NCBI GenBank assembly: GCA_947505245.1
Contig: CANNIZ010000001.1
Location: forward strand, 124,001 to 188,000
Source of the DNA: Pseudomonadota bacterium
GTDB lineage: Bacteria > Myxococcota_A > UBA796 > GCA-2862545
Direction: 5' to 3'
Length of the DNA stretch: 64,000 bases
Position 1 is the stretch's first letter. Each line of letters begins with the position of its first letter. This document shows positions 56,751 through 64,000 of the stretch, piece after piece. A program made the position numbers and the translations under genes. The notes under the pieces are model-generated. The model made no database searches. It saw only the letters and a list, made by a program, of their open reading frames with translations, and was not told the DNA's origin.

Positions 56751-56798
56751 GGTCGCGGTTCCCGCCCGCTTTCGGGTATGGTCGCCCGAGGGGGTTTC

Positions 56799-59700
56799 AT
56801 GCGCGTTTCACGGACGGTGTTGCCGTTGGGGATCGCCCTGGCTGCGGGCTGCGCGCCAGCGGAAGCTCCGCCCGCGCCGATCGACCTCGGCGACCTCGGC
56901 GCGCGCGCGGACGCGTCCTCCTACCAGCTCGTCGCGGACGGGGTCGGCTTCCGGTTCGCGAATCCGGCCAGGGGAACCGGCGCCCACGTCGACGGTGACG
57001 CGTTGGTCGTCGCACACGCCGGTCGGGACAGCTTCACCGTACGCACGCTGGCGGTGGACGGGGTCCGTTCGCCCGGCGTGGCCGACGCCGGCGCGTGTGT
57101 ACCGGACGGGCGGGTGGACCTGTGGGGTGCCTGCCTGCGCCGTTTGGACGTAGCGCGCGAGGGCGTGACGGAGTGGTGGCAGAACGGCCCCGAGGGCTTC
57201 GAGCACGGGTTCACCGTCGACGTGGTCCAGGGTCCCAGGCTCGTGATCGAGGTGGGATTCGAAGGCGCCGCCGTCGCGGTGGACGCCGAGGGCGTCACCC
57301 TGACCCCCGCCATGGGCGAGCCCTGGCGGTACGATCACCTCGTCGCCACCGACGCGAGCGGGCGTGAGCTGGACGCGGGGTTCGAGGGCATGGACGGAGG
57401 CGTCGCCCTGGTGATCGACGTCGCCGACGCCGAGCTGCCGATCACGGTCGATCCAGTGCTCACGCCCCACACCACCCTGCTCGAAGGCGCCACGGACGGC
57501 GAGCGCTTCGGGGGCACGGTCGCGGGCGCTGGCGACGTCAGCGGCGACGGCATCCCGGACCTGATCGTCGGCTTCCCCTCGTGGTCGGGCGGACCGCTCA
57601 CCAACGCCGGCGGCTTCGCGATCTTTAACGGCAAGGGCGTGCCGGGCATGGTCGATGCCACGCCGTCCTTCACGCAGTTCGGGACGGTGGCCGCGCAGCA
57701 GCTCGGGATCTCCGTCTCCACCGCGGGTGACCTCGACGGTGACGGACGAACGGACGTGGTGGTGGGCGGCCAGGGGCTCGTGCGCATCCTGCGAGGCACG
57801 ATCACAGGCTCCCTGAGTCCCCTGTCGGACATCCCGATCGGCTCCGGCTCCAACGTGGTCACGGTGGCCGGCGCCGGTGACGTCGACGGCGACGGTCTCT
57901 CGGACATCGTCGTTGGGGAGCAGGAGTTGACTTCGCCCCTGACCAAGCAGGGCGCGGTCTATATCATCCGGGGCCTGAATCCGACCCTCGCCACCCTGAT
58001 CGACAAGGGCGTGGTGAACGCGCAGCTCGGGGCCTCGGTCGCGGGACTCGGCGACATCAACGACGACGGGCTCGACGATTTCGCTGCCGGCGCCCCTGGA
58101 ACCAGCACGAACCTCGGGGCCGTGCGCGTCTACAAGGGCGTGACGGCCGGCCTGCCGACGTTCGTCACCACGCTGACAGGCCTGGGCGGTCGGTTCGGAG
58201 CCTCCGTGGCGGGTGCCGGCGACTTCAACGGCGACGGGTACGCCGACCTCGCGGTGGGCGCGCCGAACCAGAGCGGCACTTCCCCCAACGCCGGCGCGGT
58301 CTACGTGTACCCCGGGAACGCCTCCGCCAACGGGAGCATCGGCGGCGTGCCGATGATGAAGTTCGAGCCCACTGTCACGGGCGCGAGCTTCGGGACCGGG
58401 CTCGACGGCGGCGGCGACCTGAACGGTGACGGCCTGTCCGACTTGTTGGTGGGAGCGCCCCACTACGGCATCACGGATGAAGGCGCCGTGTATGCGCTGT
58501 TCGGGACGCGCGGCGCCACCCCGATGTTCTCGAGCACGCCCCTCGTCACGGGTGGGCGAGCCCTGGCGGGCCTGGGCCACGCCGTCGCGCTCGTCGGGGA
58601 CCTCGACGGTGACGGGCTGACCGACGCTGCCCTCGGTGTCCCCGGCTGGGACCTGCTCGGCCCTGCTCGCGGGCGCGTGCAGCTGCATCGCGGTCAGGCG
58701 GCTGGTACTGGAAGGATCGGAGAACGCAGCACCAATACCGTGGGCGCGGGTCGGGGCAGCGTCGCGATCGTCGGCGACTTCGACGGGGACGGGTACGACG
58801 AGGTCGTCGTGGGGCTGCCCGGCTGCGACGACGGGGGCACGGACGTCGGCTGTCTGCGAGGGTACCGAGGCGGAGTGAACGGCCTCGAGGTGAGCCCGTC
58901 GTGGACGCTGTCAGGCACGCAGGTCGGCGGCCGCCTCGGCGCCAGCGTGACCTCCGGCGACTTCGACGGGGACGGCCGCTTGGATCTTGCGGTCGGGGCC
59001 CCGGGCTGGGACGGCGGCTCGACCGACGAAGGCGCGGTGTTCGTGTGGCGGAACGACGGGTGGCCGCTACCCCCGACGCCGTCCCTGCAGCTCGAGATCA
59101 ACTTCGCGCAGTCGGCGTTCGGCGGCTCCGTCGCTGCGGCCGGTGACGTCGATCGGGACGGATTCGACGACCTCCTGGTGGGCGCGCCGGGGTGCGACAT
59201 CGGTGGTCCGAACCGCGGCCGGGTGCACCTGTTCCGGGGGGGCGAAGCCGGCCTCGGCGCTGCGCCGGCGTACTTCTTCGCGGGGACGCAAGATGAGGCG
59301 CAGCTCGGCGCGAACGTGGACGCCGCCGGCGACGTGAACGGTGACGGGTACGCCGACGTCGTTTTCAACGCGCCGCTCTGGAACGGGTCGACGCCCGACG
59401 TCGGACGAGTCGAGGTGGTGCTCGGGTCGCCTACGGGGCTCCGCCTCGACTCGAAGTGGTCGACCGAGGGCGAGGCCGAGGGCGTGCGACTCGGCGGGGG
59501 TTGGGACGTCACCACCAACACATCTGACGGCGACGGCATCGTAGGCCGGGTGGACGTCGAGCGCGACGGGTACGCGGACCTGTTCCTGGGGGCGTGGCGC
59601 TCCTCGGGCGGCGCGGTCAACGGTGGCATGGTGCGACGGTGGCGGGGCTCCGTGAACGGACCGGAGTTCGTGTCGGTGCTCGGGCAGCACACGGGCTCCA

Positions 59701-61439
59701 CGCCGGAAGGTCGGAACGGCTTCGCGCTCGCCGCCGGGGACCTCAACGGCGACGGCTACGGCGACCTGGTGGCGACAAACCCCGGTACGGGCCTCGCGAC
59801 CTACGACCAGTTCAACGGTCCCGTCGGCTTCCCAGGCGGGAGCTGGGGCTACGGATCGCCGAACGGCCCCAACGGCGAGTTCGGCGCGGCCGTGGACGTC
59901 GGCGACTACAACCACGACGGGTGCGCCGACATCGTGATCTCGGAGGCGTCTCTCAACCGCGTGCACTTGTACGCCGGGTGTGTCGCCGACTATGGGCCGA
60001 ACCCCACTCCGGGTCCCCGCATCGCGGCGCACCAGGAGGGTCCCGGCGCGTTGCCGGCGTTGAGCCCGGGCCTCCGGGTGCCTGCCAACGGGTTCGACGC
60101 TGGCTTCCTTGCGACGCGCACTCACCTCGGCCGACAGGTTGTTGCGATCGAGGTCGAGGTCCAGCCGCTCGGGTCGGCGTTCGGGAGCCCGGCCCAATAC
60201 ACCGCGGTGGGGGCAGACACGCTCCGGTTCGGAACCACGGCCTTGACGTCGGCACGTCCACTGGTGGACGACACGTCCTACCACTGGCGCGCGCGCGTGC
60301 TGTACGACCCGACCCGCGCGAGCACCGACGTCTCCTCGCGTTGGTACTACGGCGGCTACAGCGGGGACGCCTCCGGCACCCACGTCGTCACGAAGTGCCC
60401 CCCAGGAGACCTCGACAACGACAGCATCCCGGACTGCATCGACCAGGACCACGACAACGACGGCGACCTCGATCGCACCGACTGCGACGACGTGAACCCG
60501 ACGATCTCGACGCTCGCGGTCGAGGTCTGCGACGCGATCGACCAGGACTGCGACGGCGATGTGAACGAGGCCTTTCCCGACTTTGATGGTGACGCGTCGA
60601 TCGACTGTGTCGATCTCGACGACGACGGCGACGGCGACCCGGACGTGAGCGACTGCGCGGACTTCGACGCGGCGATCCACCACGGAGCCACCGAGCTGTG
60701 CGACCTCGTCGACCAGAACTGCAGCGGCGACGTGGTCGACGCGTTCGTCGACACCGACGGGGACGGCACGCCGGACTGCACGGACGACGACGACGACGGT
60801 GACCTCGACCTCGACGGGGCCGACTGCGACCCGCTCGACGAGACGATCTTCCACGGCGCGGCTGAGCTGTGTGACGAAGTCGATCAGGACTGCGACGGCG
60901 ACCTCGTCGACGGGTTTGAGAACACCGACGGCGATGCCAAACCGGACTGCGTCGACGACGATGACGACGGCGACCTGGACCTCGACGAGAGCGACTGCAA
61001 GCCGCTGGACGCGTTGATCTCGCATACGGCGGTTGAGCTGTGCGACGCGATCGACCAGAACTGCGACGGCAACGCGGCCGAGGGGTTCCCCGACGTTGAC
61101 GGTGACCACGTCGCGGACTGCGTGGACGACGACGACGACAACGACGACGACCCCGATGTCACGGACTGCGCGGACGACGATCCGGCGATCCACGCCGGCG
61201 CCGACGAGCAGTGCGACCTGATCGACAGCGACTGTGACGGTCTGCTCGACGAGGGTTGCGACACGGCGGTCCTGGATACGGACACCGCCGACACCGAAGA
61301 CACCGACACGTCGGACCTCGAAACGGCCGCGGAGTGGGTGACCGGCGGGGGCTGCCATTGCGGCAGCGGGAGCGCGCTTTCGCTGCTGTGGACGGCGCCG
61401 CTCGCGCTGCTGGCGCGTCGTCGTCGTCGGGCGTGTTAG
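56799..61439 (+). CDS. Giant FG-GAP/MopE-repeat lipoprotein with MYXO-CTERM-like tail
   Basis: 1546 residues. The start ATG has GAGGGGGT before it and gives a lipobox (LAAGC, Cys18). After an N-terminal domain of ~200 residues there are about 14 FG-GAP/integrin-alpha-like repeats (each with D-x-D-x-D-G calcium loop such as AGDVDGDGLSDIVVG) over about residues 235-1070. Then come Asp-rich MopE-type Cys repeats (CDAIDQDCDGDVNE) over about 1205-1490. The last ~30 residues, GGGCHCGSG, a hydrophobic helix and RRRRRAC, look like MYXO-CTERM sorting. Probably a very large calcium-binding surface protein. Confidence 0.85.
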   Translation: MRVSRTVLPLGIALAAGCAPAEAPPAPIDLGDLGARADASSYQLVADGVGFRFANPARGTGAHVDGDALVVAHAGRDSFTVRTLAVDGVRSPGVADAGACVPDGRVDLWGACLRRLDVAREGVTEWWQNGPEGFEHGFTVDVVQGPRLVIEVGFEGAAVAVDAEGVTLTPAMGEPWRYDHLVATDASGRELDAGFEGMDGGVALVIDVADAELPITVDPVLTPHTTLLEGATDGERFGGTVAGAGDVSGDGIPDLIVGFPSWSGGPLTNAGGFAIFNGKGVPGMVDATPSFTQFGTVAAQQLGISVSTAGDLDGDGRTDVVVGGQGLVRILRGTITGSLSPLSDIPIGSGSNVVTVAGAGDVDGDGLSDIVVGEQELTSPLTKQGAVYIIRGLNPTLATLIDKGVVNAQLGASVAGLGDINDDGLDDFAAGAPGTSTNLGAVRVYKGVTAGLPTFVTTLTGLGGRFGASVAGAGDFNGDGYADLAVGAPNQSGTSPNAGAVYVYPGNASANGSIGGVPMMKFEPTVTGASFGTGLDGGGDLNGDGLSDLLVGAPHYGITDEGAVYALFGTRGATPMFSSTPLVTGGRALAGLGHAVALVGDLDGDGLTDAALGVPGWDLLGPARGRVQLHRGQAAGTGRIGERSTNTVGAGRGSVAIVGDFDGDGYDEVVVGLPGCDDGGTDVGCLRGYRGGVNGLEVSPSWTLSGTQVGGRLGASVTSGDFDGDGRLDLAVGAPGWDGGSTDEGAVFVWRNDGWPLPPTPSLQLEINFAQSAFGGSVAAAGDVDRDGFDDLLVGAPGCDIGGPNRGRVHLFRGGEAGLGAAPAYFFAGTQDEAQLGANVDAAGDVNGDGYADVVFNAPLWNGSTPDVGRVEVVLGSPTGLRLDSKWSTEGEAEGVRLGGGWDVTTNTSDGDGIVGRVDVERDGYADLFLGAWRSSGGAVNGGMVRRWRGSVNGPEFVSVLGQHTGSTPEGRNGFALAAGDLNGDGYGDLVATNPGTGLATYDQFNGPVGFPGGSWGYGSPNGPNGEFGAAVDVGDYNHDGCADIVISEASLNRVHLYAGCVADYGPNPTPGPRIAAHQEGPGALPALSPGLRVPANGFDAGFLATRTHLGRQVVAIEVEVQPLGSAFGSPAQYTAVGADTLRFGTTALTSARPLVDDTSYHWRARVLYDPTRASTDVSSRWYYGGYSGDASGTHVVTKCPPGDLDNDSIPDCIDQDHDNDGDLDRTDCDDVNPTISTLAVEVCDAIDQDCDGDVNEAFPDFDGDASIDCVDLDDDGDGDPDVSDCADFDAAIHHGATELCDLVDQNCSGDVVDAFVDTDGDGTPDCTDDDDDGDLDLDGADCDPLDETIFHGAAELCDEVDQDCDGDLVDGFENTDGDAKPDCVDDDDDGDLDLDESDCKPLDALISHTAVELCDAIDQNCDGNAAEGFPDVDGDHVADCVDDDDDNDDDPDVTDCADDDPAIHAGADEQCDLIDSDCDGLLDEGCDTAVLDTDTADTEDTDTSDLETAAEWVTGGGCHCGSGSALSLLWTAPLALLARRRRRAC

Positions 61440-61448
61440 GGTGGCTTC

Positions 61449-62054
61449 ATGCTGATCGCAACGCTGTTCGCCTGTGTGAACCCGCCCCCACAACCGGAGC
61501 AGCCGCCCGCGGTGTCGCTGGTCGCGACCGTGCCCGAAGCTGTCGTCGCGCCTCCGGTCGTCGCGGCTCCCGTGGTCGCACAGGGTTCCTTGGTCGAAAT
61601 TGGCGCCGTGCCGCCGGACTTCACGCTGATGGACCGCAACCCCAAGTCGCCGGGGAACGGTCAGCCGGTGTCGCCCAAGGACTACGTCGGCAGCGCCGCC
61701 GGGTTCTACTTCACCCACGCGACTTGAGGCGGCTGTCGTAGCCAGTTTGGCTACCTTGCCCAGATCGACCAGGAGCTCGCCAAGGAGCACCCGGAGCTGC
61801 CGATCGACCTCGTCGCCGTGAACCTCACAGGCCTCGAGGGCGGCCTGCCTGAGATGCCCGCCGATCTGCCCGTGCTGCAGGACACCGCCGACGTCAACGT
61901 GTGGGCGAAGTGGGGCGGCCAGTGGCGCGACGTCGTGATCGTCGACCGCAAGGGTCAAAAGACCGCGGTGTACAACCTCTCCGAGCACGACCTCGGCGAC
62001 CCGGCCAACCGCGACGCGCTCAAGGTCCTGCTCGTCGAAGCCAGCAAACCCTAG
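61449..62054 (+). CDS. Putative selenoprotein: redoxin-like lipoprotein with in-frame UGA in a U-x-x-C motif
   Basis: 201 residues if the TGA at 61725-61727 is read as Sec (U93). The N-terminus has lipobox LFAC (Cys9) and a Pro/Ala-rich tether (about 10-45). A redoxin/TlpA-like domain starts at PPDFTLMDRNPKSPG; the next motif FYFTHAT-U-GG-C places U93 where the redox Cys normally lies, with C96 as partner. The frame continues unbroken (RSQFGYLAQIDQELAKEHPE, later WGGQWRDVVIVDRKG) to 62054. A SECIS-like hairpin follows the UGA. An artefact or pseudogene is the alternative, but the readthrough protein is coherent. Confidence 0.75.
61738..61754 (+). promoter_or_regulatory. Bacterial SECIS-like hairpin
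   Basis: GTAGCCA (61738-61744), loop GTT and TGGCTAC (61748-61754) form a perfect 7-bp stem 10 bases downstream of the UGA at 61725-61727. G745 in the loop lies 17 bases after UGA. Bacterial SECIS elements have an apical stem about 11 bases after UGA with a G/U in the loop. GGC (731-733) can also pair with GCC (758-760) to extend it. Confidence 0.65.
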
Positions 62055-62082: not shown

Positions 62083-62856
62083 ATGTGGAACCTCGTCTTG
62101 TCCTCGGCTCTGGCGCTCACGTGCCCGGAGAACCTGACCCTGGCGGGGACGCCGGGCGCCGAGGTGTGGTGCGAGCGGGCGTCTGCGCCGGGGGTGCGCG
62201 CGGGCCCGACCGAGGGCTTCCACCCGGGCGGCGCGCGCTGGTACACCGGCGCCTACGTCGGCGGGAAGGCGCACGGCGACTGGTCGTATTGGGACGCGAA
62301 CGGCGCGCTCGAGGCCCAGGGGCGGTTCCTGAACGGCGCGAAGTACGGCGTCTGGGTTCAGTTCTGGCCGGATGGTTCGAAGCGCTCCGAAGGAAGCTAC
62401 CTGACCGGGATCAAGACGGGGACCTGGACGACCTGGCACGAAGCCGGCGGCGTCGACCGCGTGGTGGCGTTCAAGTCCGGCCTCGAACAGGGCGTCGAGA
62501 AGCTGTACGCGCCGAACGGGGCGCTGGTCTCGGAAGGGACGTTCGAGGCTGGAAAGAAGCAGGGTACGTTCACGCTGTCGTACGAGACGGGCGCCAAAAA
62601 GGCCGTGCAGGTGTGGGACGCCGACGCAAAACAGGGCCACTGGGAGGGCTGGTACGACGACGGCGCGCTGCGGTTCTCGGGCGATCTGCTCGACGGGAAG
62701 GAGAACGGCATCTGGTCGCAGGGCTGGCCGAACGGGCAGAAGAAGGGCGAGGGCCGCTTCATCGCGGGTGTCCCGGAAGGTGAGTGGACGTGGTGGAACG
62801 AAGACGGCAGCGTCGACCGCGTAGAACACTGGGTGGAAGGGGTCAAACAGCCCTAG
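62083..62856 (+). CDS. Exported MORN-repeat protein
   Basis: 257 residues; an N-terminal signal (LVLSSALALTC). Repeats of about 23 residues of the MORN/YwqK kind follow, e.g. GAYVGGKAHGDWSYWDANGA, GRFLNGAKYGVWVQFWPDGS and GKENGIWSQGWPNGQKKGEG, about eight in all. MORN repeats form beta-hairpin arrays that serve binding roles. It is 28 bases after the selenoprotein gene and may be part of the same transcript. Confidence 0.75.
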   Translation: MWNLVLSSALALTCPENLTLAGTPGAEVWCERASAPGVRAGPTEGFHPGGARWYTGAYVGGKAHGDWSYWDANGALEAQGRFLNGAKYGVWVQFWPDGSKRSEGSYLTGIKTGTWTTWHEAGGVDRVVAFKSGLEQGVEKLYAPNGALVSEGTFEAGKKQGTFTLSYETGAKKAVQVWDADAKQGHWEGWYDDGALRFSGDLLDGKENGIWSQGWPNGQKKGEGRFIAGVPEGEWTWWNEDGSVDRVEHWVEGVKQP

Positions 62857-63019
62857 GGTCCCCAGGAAGCGCCGAACCAAGGGCTGCCTCAGTCGGCGCA
62901 ACGATCGGAGGCGCACGAAGGAGGGCCTGCGATGGGCCCACCCGGGGCTCGGTCTTGGACCGCGGGATAGGATGTCGACCTGGTGTGGATTGATTCGATC
63001 CCACCACCGCGAGGTCGCC

Positions 63020-64000
63020 ATGGAAGTGCGTTTGCACGGTCGGGGTGGGCAGGGCGGGGTAACGTGCGCGAAGATCCTCGCAGCGACGTGGGCGCGCCTC
63101 GGGATGAGCGTCCAGGCCTTCGGGGACTACGCGGGGGAGCGCTCCGGCGCTCCGGTCCGTGCGTACCTGCGCGTGGACTCGCAGCCCGTCACGAACCGGA
63201 ACAAGGTCTACGCGCCGGACCACGTCCTCGTGCTCGATCACGCCCTGCTCGACGCGGCCGCGGTGGCGGGCCTGCGCGCGGGCGGCACGCTGGTGGTCAA
63301 CACGCCCGAGGCGCCCGAAGCCGTCGCGCGGCGGTTCCCCGGCTTCCACATCGCGACGGTTGACGCCACCGCGATCGCGCGGGCCCGCGGCATCGGCGGC
63401 CGCTCGGTCGTGATCGTGAACACGACGATCGCCGGCGCGTTCGCCCGGGCGCTCGACCTGCCGTTCGCCGCGCTCGAGGCGGCGCTGATCGACCTTCACC
63501 TCGCCGCCGACGTCGCGGCCGCGCGCGACGCCTGGGAGGCCGTACGGATGTGCGCCGCCGCCGGGCAACCGCACGCGGCGGCTCCACCTGTTGGTGGGGC
63601 CGCGGTGCTCGATCTCGTCGCCCACGTCGAAGGAGCGACCCCGGCCGTCCGCACCGGCAGCTGGCGCTCGTCCACGCCACGCTACGTGACGCGCCCCGCG
63701 CCGTGCTCCGTCGCCTGCCCAGCGGGCAATGACGTCGTCGGGTTCGTTCAGGCGCTGTCGACCGACGGCGTCGAGGCCGCCGCCCAGGTGCTCGCGCGCA
63801 CCACGCCGTTCGCGGCGGTGTGTGGCCGCGTGTGCCCCGGGTACTGCAACTTCGCGTGCAACCGCGCTACGCTCGACGACACCGTCGACACGCGCGGGCT
63901 CGAGCGGTGGATCGGTGATCACGCCACCGTCGCCCGCGGCGACGCCGCCTCGAACGGGCGCCGCGCCGCGGTGGTCGGCGGTGGTCCGGCGGGGATCTCC
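63020..64000 (+). CDS. Fused 2-oxoacid:acceptor oxidoreductase gamma subunit and GltD-type FAD/Fe-S domain, 3' end outside window
   Basis: 327 residues are visible, open to the window end. Residues 1-185 fit the gamma domain of the pyruvate/2-oxoacid:ferredoxin oxidoreductase family (MEVRLHGRGGQGGVTCAKIL, GDYAGERSGAPVRAYLRV). From about 215, an Fe-S domain with CSVACPAGNDVVGFVQAL and CGRVCPGYCNFACNRAT matches the Fer4_20 domain of GltD, and the last residues RRAAVVGGGPAGIS begin its FAD site. The start ATG has GAGGTC before it. Suggests a NAD(P)-linked oxidoreductase of 2-oxoacids; the catalytic subunits must lie outside the window. Confidence 0.85.
   Translation, partial: MEVRLHGRGGQGGVTCAKILAATWARLGMSVQAFGDYAGERSGAPVRAYLRVDSQPVTNRNKVYAPDHVLVLDHALLDAAAVAGLRAGGTLVVNTPEAPEAVARRFPGFHIATVDATAIARARGIGGRSVVIVNTTIAGAFARALDLPFAALEAALIDLHLAADVAAARDAWEAVRMCAAAGQPHAAAPPVGGAAVLDLVAHVEGATPAVRTGSWRSSTPRYVTRPAPCSVACPAGNDVVGFVQALSTDGVEAAAQVLARTTPFAAVCGRVCPGYCNFACNRATLDDTVDTRGLERWIGDHATVARGDAASNGRRAAVVGGGPAGIS

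Follow-up and report, generated by a model that had tools for sequence, protein, structure and literature searches.

An NF053656-family thioredoxin-fold gene with a conserved in-frame UGA and a covarying SECIS hairpin, very probably encoding a selenoprotein

A 2026 review (PMC13188914) lists two families in which selenocysteine (Sec) occupies a UxxC motif: a Prx-like thiol:disulfide oxidoreductase (PF00578) and a Redoxin family protein (PF08534). For bSECIS hairpins the same source gives an upper stem of 4-16 bp, a loop of 3-9 nt with G in the first two loop positions, a UGA-to-loop distance of 16-37 nt and a minimum free energy (MFE) of -7.5 kcal/mol or lower. The gene analysed here, which lies in a 64,000-nucleotide stretch of DNA (the window), likewise encodes a UxxC motif in a redoxin-type thioredoxin fold, but its product falls below both Pfam cut-offs, scoring 21.8 bits against AhpC-TSA (PF00578; gathering cut-off 26), over its N-terminal half, and 14.3 bits against Redoxin (PF08534; gathering cut-off 26.6).

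The closest described system is NCBIfam family NF053656, redoxin_TUGYCR, named 'TUGYCR motif thioredoxin fold (seleno)protein'. The read-through protein matched this model at 173.2 bits (cut-off 100), over residues 56-198 and profile positions 2-146 of 146, a match that spans the TGA position; all 52 members of our protein alignment also matched it. The gene shares with the family the Sec/Cys site and the domain length. It differs in its motif, TUGGCR, in which the usual Tyr at the fourth place (41 of 52 members; Gly in 2) is replaced by Gly, as it is in locus L045, and it is otherwise an ordinary member; the family takes its name from the motif, but membership is decided by the score. We conclude that the gene is a further member of a selenoprotein family already recorded by NCBI and common across the phylum. 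The preliminary description had announced a new selenoprotein; at the level of the family this does not hold, because NF053656, matched at 173 bits against a cut-off of 100, is already a (seleno)protein family, TGA forms of which are carried by 40 of 284 genomes of the phylum. Neither NF053656 nor TUGYCR was mentioned in the literature searched, and the 119-entry table of the review has no entry under accession NF053656 (PMC13188914).

The reading frame starts at the ATG at 61449 and closes with a TAG ending at 62054 (Table 1). The sole internal stop in the 201-residue translation is the TGA at 61725-61727, residue 93, in the context FYFTHAT-U-GG-C, and the coordinates of this interrupted frame, as first described, were exact. 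The open-frame listing of this GC-rich genome contains many long overlapping frames, so an open frame is by itself little proof of a gene. To judge from the sequence around its start, the gene may be translationally coupled to the one that precedes it.

Table 1. Features of the predicted selenoprotein gene, in window coordinates
Feature	Position	Strand	Basis or remark
Predicted selenoprotein gene	61449..62054	+	201 codons + TAG stop, single internal TGA
Shine-Dalgarno-like stretch TAGGGTGG	61437..61444	+	read off the sequence; overlaps the preceding gene's stop codon
Probable, very short lipoprotein signal MLIATLFA-C, lipobox Cys9	61449..61475	+	sequence and homologues' short signals
Pro/Ala/Val-rich low-complexity linker, lipobox to domain	61476..61610	+	translation
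Predicted thioredoxin-fold domain, residues 56-198	61614..62042	+	NF053656 match, AlphaFold, Foldseek
UGA codon, very probably read as Sec93	61725..61727	+	TGA in 55/65 aligned members, Cys codon in 10/65
Cys96, second (putative resolving) residue of U-x-x-C	61734..61736	+	C in 51/52 aligned members
Putative bSECIS hairpin, 7-bp stem, loop GTT	61738..61754	+	covariation, 5/7 pairs changed on both sides
Arg160, near-invariant	61926..61928	+	R in 47/52 members; MAFFT alignment with L022

A survey of 284 genomes of the phylum found a member over the NF053656 cut-off in 43, mostly with one internal TGA; the TGA form itself exceeded the cut-off in 40, and some genomes carried two or three copies of the family. 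The active-site codon was TGA in 55 of 65 aligned members, this gene counted, and TGC or TGT in the other 10, so that the comparison with homologues proposed in the preliminary description did reveal Cys in place of U. The TGA members span many genera and families, with the TGA at the identical aligned codon, and the frame beyond it is conserved, aligned members being 28-54% identical to this protein. A further homologue, L069:1007-1441, has lost both active-site residues (ATASVQ); the genome that carries it, G113, has a TGA form as well. No relative was found in a scan of genome contigs with the single protein as query, nor among plasmid records, and relatives showed no conserved neighbour within about 1.5 kb of the gene that could point to a pathway.

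Downstream of the TGA, at a distance of 10 nt, lies the sequence GTAGCCA-GTT-TGGCTAC, which forms a perfect 7-bp stem with G first in the loop, a UGA-to-loop distance of 17 nt and an MFE of -8.5 kcal/mol; stem, loop, G position, spacing and energy all lie within the bSECIS limits (PMC13188914). The significance of this hairpin is comparative and does not come from the fold of the single sequence. The predicted fold of the 57-nt region did not surpass those of its shuffles (z -0.82; 46 of 200 at least as stable), and when synonymous codons were redrawn from the biased pool that the family itself uses, 16% of the draws also reached seven pairs. Across 51 TGA members aligned without gaps, 96.1% of cells were paired, a figure that describes the majority class, since the alignment omits four members (L070, L071, L082 and L086) with the hairpin in another register. 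The covariation score in the 51 members was 0.415, as compared with 0.095 +/- 0.017 in shuffles, none of 500 of which reached it, and sliding the partner strand by 1-3 columns left only 23-43% of cells paired. Over all 55 TGA members the mean was 6.4 of 7 pairs, as against 2.6 of 7 in the 10 Cys members. The SECIS-like hairpin initially proposed, with its 7-bp stem, position, 10-nt spacing and loop G, is thus borne out and, in addition, covaries. A covariance model of the hairpin, run against the genome, returned only this gene at E below 0.1 and so does not enumerate further selenoproteins; Rfam gave no SECIS-type match at the locus. A covarying SECIS in about 50 members provides a clean hairpin model for the NF053656 family.

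Two groups of members deserve separate mention. In L070 and L071 the best hairpin fit, with six pairs, is shifted by 4 nt. The Cys forms L046:1507-1938 and L050:1507-1938 still form 5-6 of the 7 SECIS pairs, apparently a remnant of descent from a Sec form, and the two genes are possibly recent Sec-to-Cys conversions.

All four selenocysteine genes that the preliminary description had proposed looking for were present in the genome. The tRNA-Sec scored 71 bits, over its cut-off, and ARAGORN concurred, calling tRNA-SeC(tca); SelA was found at 467 bits, with the Pfam SelA model also matching; and SelB was found at 274 bits with the winged-helix domains SelB-wing_2 and SelB-wing_3. The winged-helix domains of SelB bind SECIS elements. 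SelD matched at 328 bits, and its own gene has one in-frame TGA, in AAGUASKL; Sec-containing SelD is a well-known selenoprotein form. The source is a draft genome (94.6% complete, 1.3% contaminated) in which tRNA-Sec, SelA, SelB and SelD sit on separate contigs (C100, C48, C95 and C14, respectively); misbinning is nevertheless unlikely, because it would have to involve four independent genes on four contigs. In the survey SelA exceeded its cut-off in 38 of 40 genomes with the TGA form, as compared with 131 of 244 others (Fisher p 1e-7, uncorrected for ancestry). The two TGA-form genomes short of the SelA cut-off are themselves incomplete, G185 (80% complete), with a partial SelA, and G161 (78% complete), with none; G044, from the same taxonomic family as the window, has the Cys form and no SelA.

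These data bear on two explanations of the TGA that require no selenocysteine. A single base separates TGA from either Cys codon, and Cys does occur in some homologues, as would be expected if the codon were truly TGC or TGT and had been misread in sequencing, or if a nonsense mutation had broken the gene at its Cys position. Neither error nor decay, however, would yield a TGA that recurs at one aligned position in 55 members of numerous genera and families, a downstream frame conserved at 28-54% identity and a covarying hairpin, and for the family the conserved TGA and the covariation of the hairpin rule this explanation out; we regard it as having almost no chance of being correct. Alternatively, UGA might be read as Trp or another standard amino acid, through a recoded genetic code or a leaky stop, and the frame is indeed open over its full length once the TGA is read. 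Against this, homologues carry Cys and not Trp as the alternative, tRNA-Sec, SelA, SelB and a Sec-type SelD are all encoded in the genome, and TGA forms co-occur with SelA; on these comparative data such readthrough was rejected as extremely improbable. The conserved UGA, the covarying hairpin, the Sec machinery, membership of the family and the predicted fold instead make it very likely, on comparative and genomic grounds, that the UGA is read as selenocysteine and that the product is a selenoprotein with a thioredoxin fold. The stem-loop, which lies within the coding sequence 10 nt past the UGA, would recruit SelB carrying Sec-tRNA, and Sec would be inserted at the in-frame UGA to give the active site Sec93-Gly-Gly-Cys96. 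Gene-calling programs that treat UGA only as a stop will break the gene in two and miss this site; correct annotation of such genes matters in a phylum where SelA is over its cut-off in ~60% of the genomes sampled.

The AlphaFold model of the protein has a thioredoxin fold (mean pLDDT 89, pTM 0.75; domain blocks nearly all above 90) and places Sec93 directly ahead of helix 94-113, the first long helix. With the TGA followed by G-G-C, the U-x-x-C in a thioredoxin-fold domain that had been described from the outset agrees with this prediction. The nearest solved folds found by Foldseek were DsbE from Chlorobium (3gl3; TM 0.82 by target length), ResA (1su9; 0.79) and TlpA-like proteins, with peroxiredoxins and glutathione peroxidases ranked below them. 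The original label 'redoxin' therefore stands only loosely: the AhpC-TSA and Redoxin matches are sub-threshold and the fold is nearest to TlpA/ResA/DsbE. The protein is like TlpA, ResA and DsbE in its thioredoxin fold, in having its redox pair where the first long helix begins and in its probable membrane anchor, but it is only about 13-25% identical to them, has Sec for the first Cys and appears to have Arg at the cis-Pro position; none of the TlpA models of Pfam and NCBIfam matched this member. In an alignment with L022, a TlpA-like protein of the same genome, it is Arg160 that appears to occupy this position.

What the enzyme does is less firmly indicated than that it contains Sec. By analogy with its structural neighbours, Sec93 would attack as the nucleophile and Cys96 would resolve, in an extracytoplasmic, membrane-anchored thiol/selenol oxidoreductase; its likeliest role would be to reduce extracytoplasmic disulfides or oxidised protein thiols, a DsbD/CcdA-type donor supplying the electrons, and we favour this disulfide-reductase role with moderate confidence. 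The protein could instead act as a peroxidase, Sec93 attacking peroxides or hydroperoxides at a peroxiredoxin-like site shaped by Arg rather than by cis-Pro. The conserved Arg160 at the cis-Pro place of the TlpA-like protein would fit such an activity, as would the sub-threshold AhpC-TSA match and the segment xYRDVVVLD, which we take to resemble the conserved Arg motif of peroxiredoxins. The motif, however, is UxxC and not the TxxC/TxxU of peroxiredoxins, and the solved folds that fit best are those of DsbE, ResA and TlpA-like proteins, so that a peroxidase seems to us rather unlikely. We suggest no more than tentatively that the family comprises distinct surface-anchored selenoenzymes, with a TlpA-type fold and Arg for cis-Pro, in which Sec would serve a peroxidase or specialised reductase and not an ordinary disulfide exchanger.

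The Sec93 protein is probably a secreted, membrane-anchored lipoprotein. Its signal is unusually short and has no basic residue, but homologues have comparably short ones (MLLLMLAC, MMLLLLAC, MFALLLSC and MLLLALAC), and a permissive scan over several start codons gave a lipobox for 53 of the 66 members, a number of which have signals just as short. The lipobox N-terminus of the preliminary description can accordingly be retained as probable, given the recurrence of the short pattern in relatives. Between lipobox and domain, residues 21-50 were modelled with low confidence (AlphaFold block means 51-68).

The genes on either side are on the same strand. The upstream gene (56778-61439, +) directly adjoins and encodes a protein of 1553 aa that has 13 FG-GAP repeats as well as MopE-type metal-binding motifs; its C-terminus consists of GGCHCGSG, a hydrophobic stretch and an RRRRR tail, an arrangement that presumably resembles a MYXO-CTERM-type sorting signal. 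Directly adjoining downstream is a gene for a 257-aa MORN-variant repeat protein (62083-62856, +). Beyond it, at 62972-64000 (+), a pyruvate/ketoacid:ferredoxin oxidoreductase gamma-type domain (POR) is fused in-frame to Fer4_20, in a frame that continues past the end of the window.
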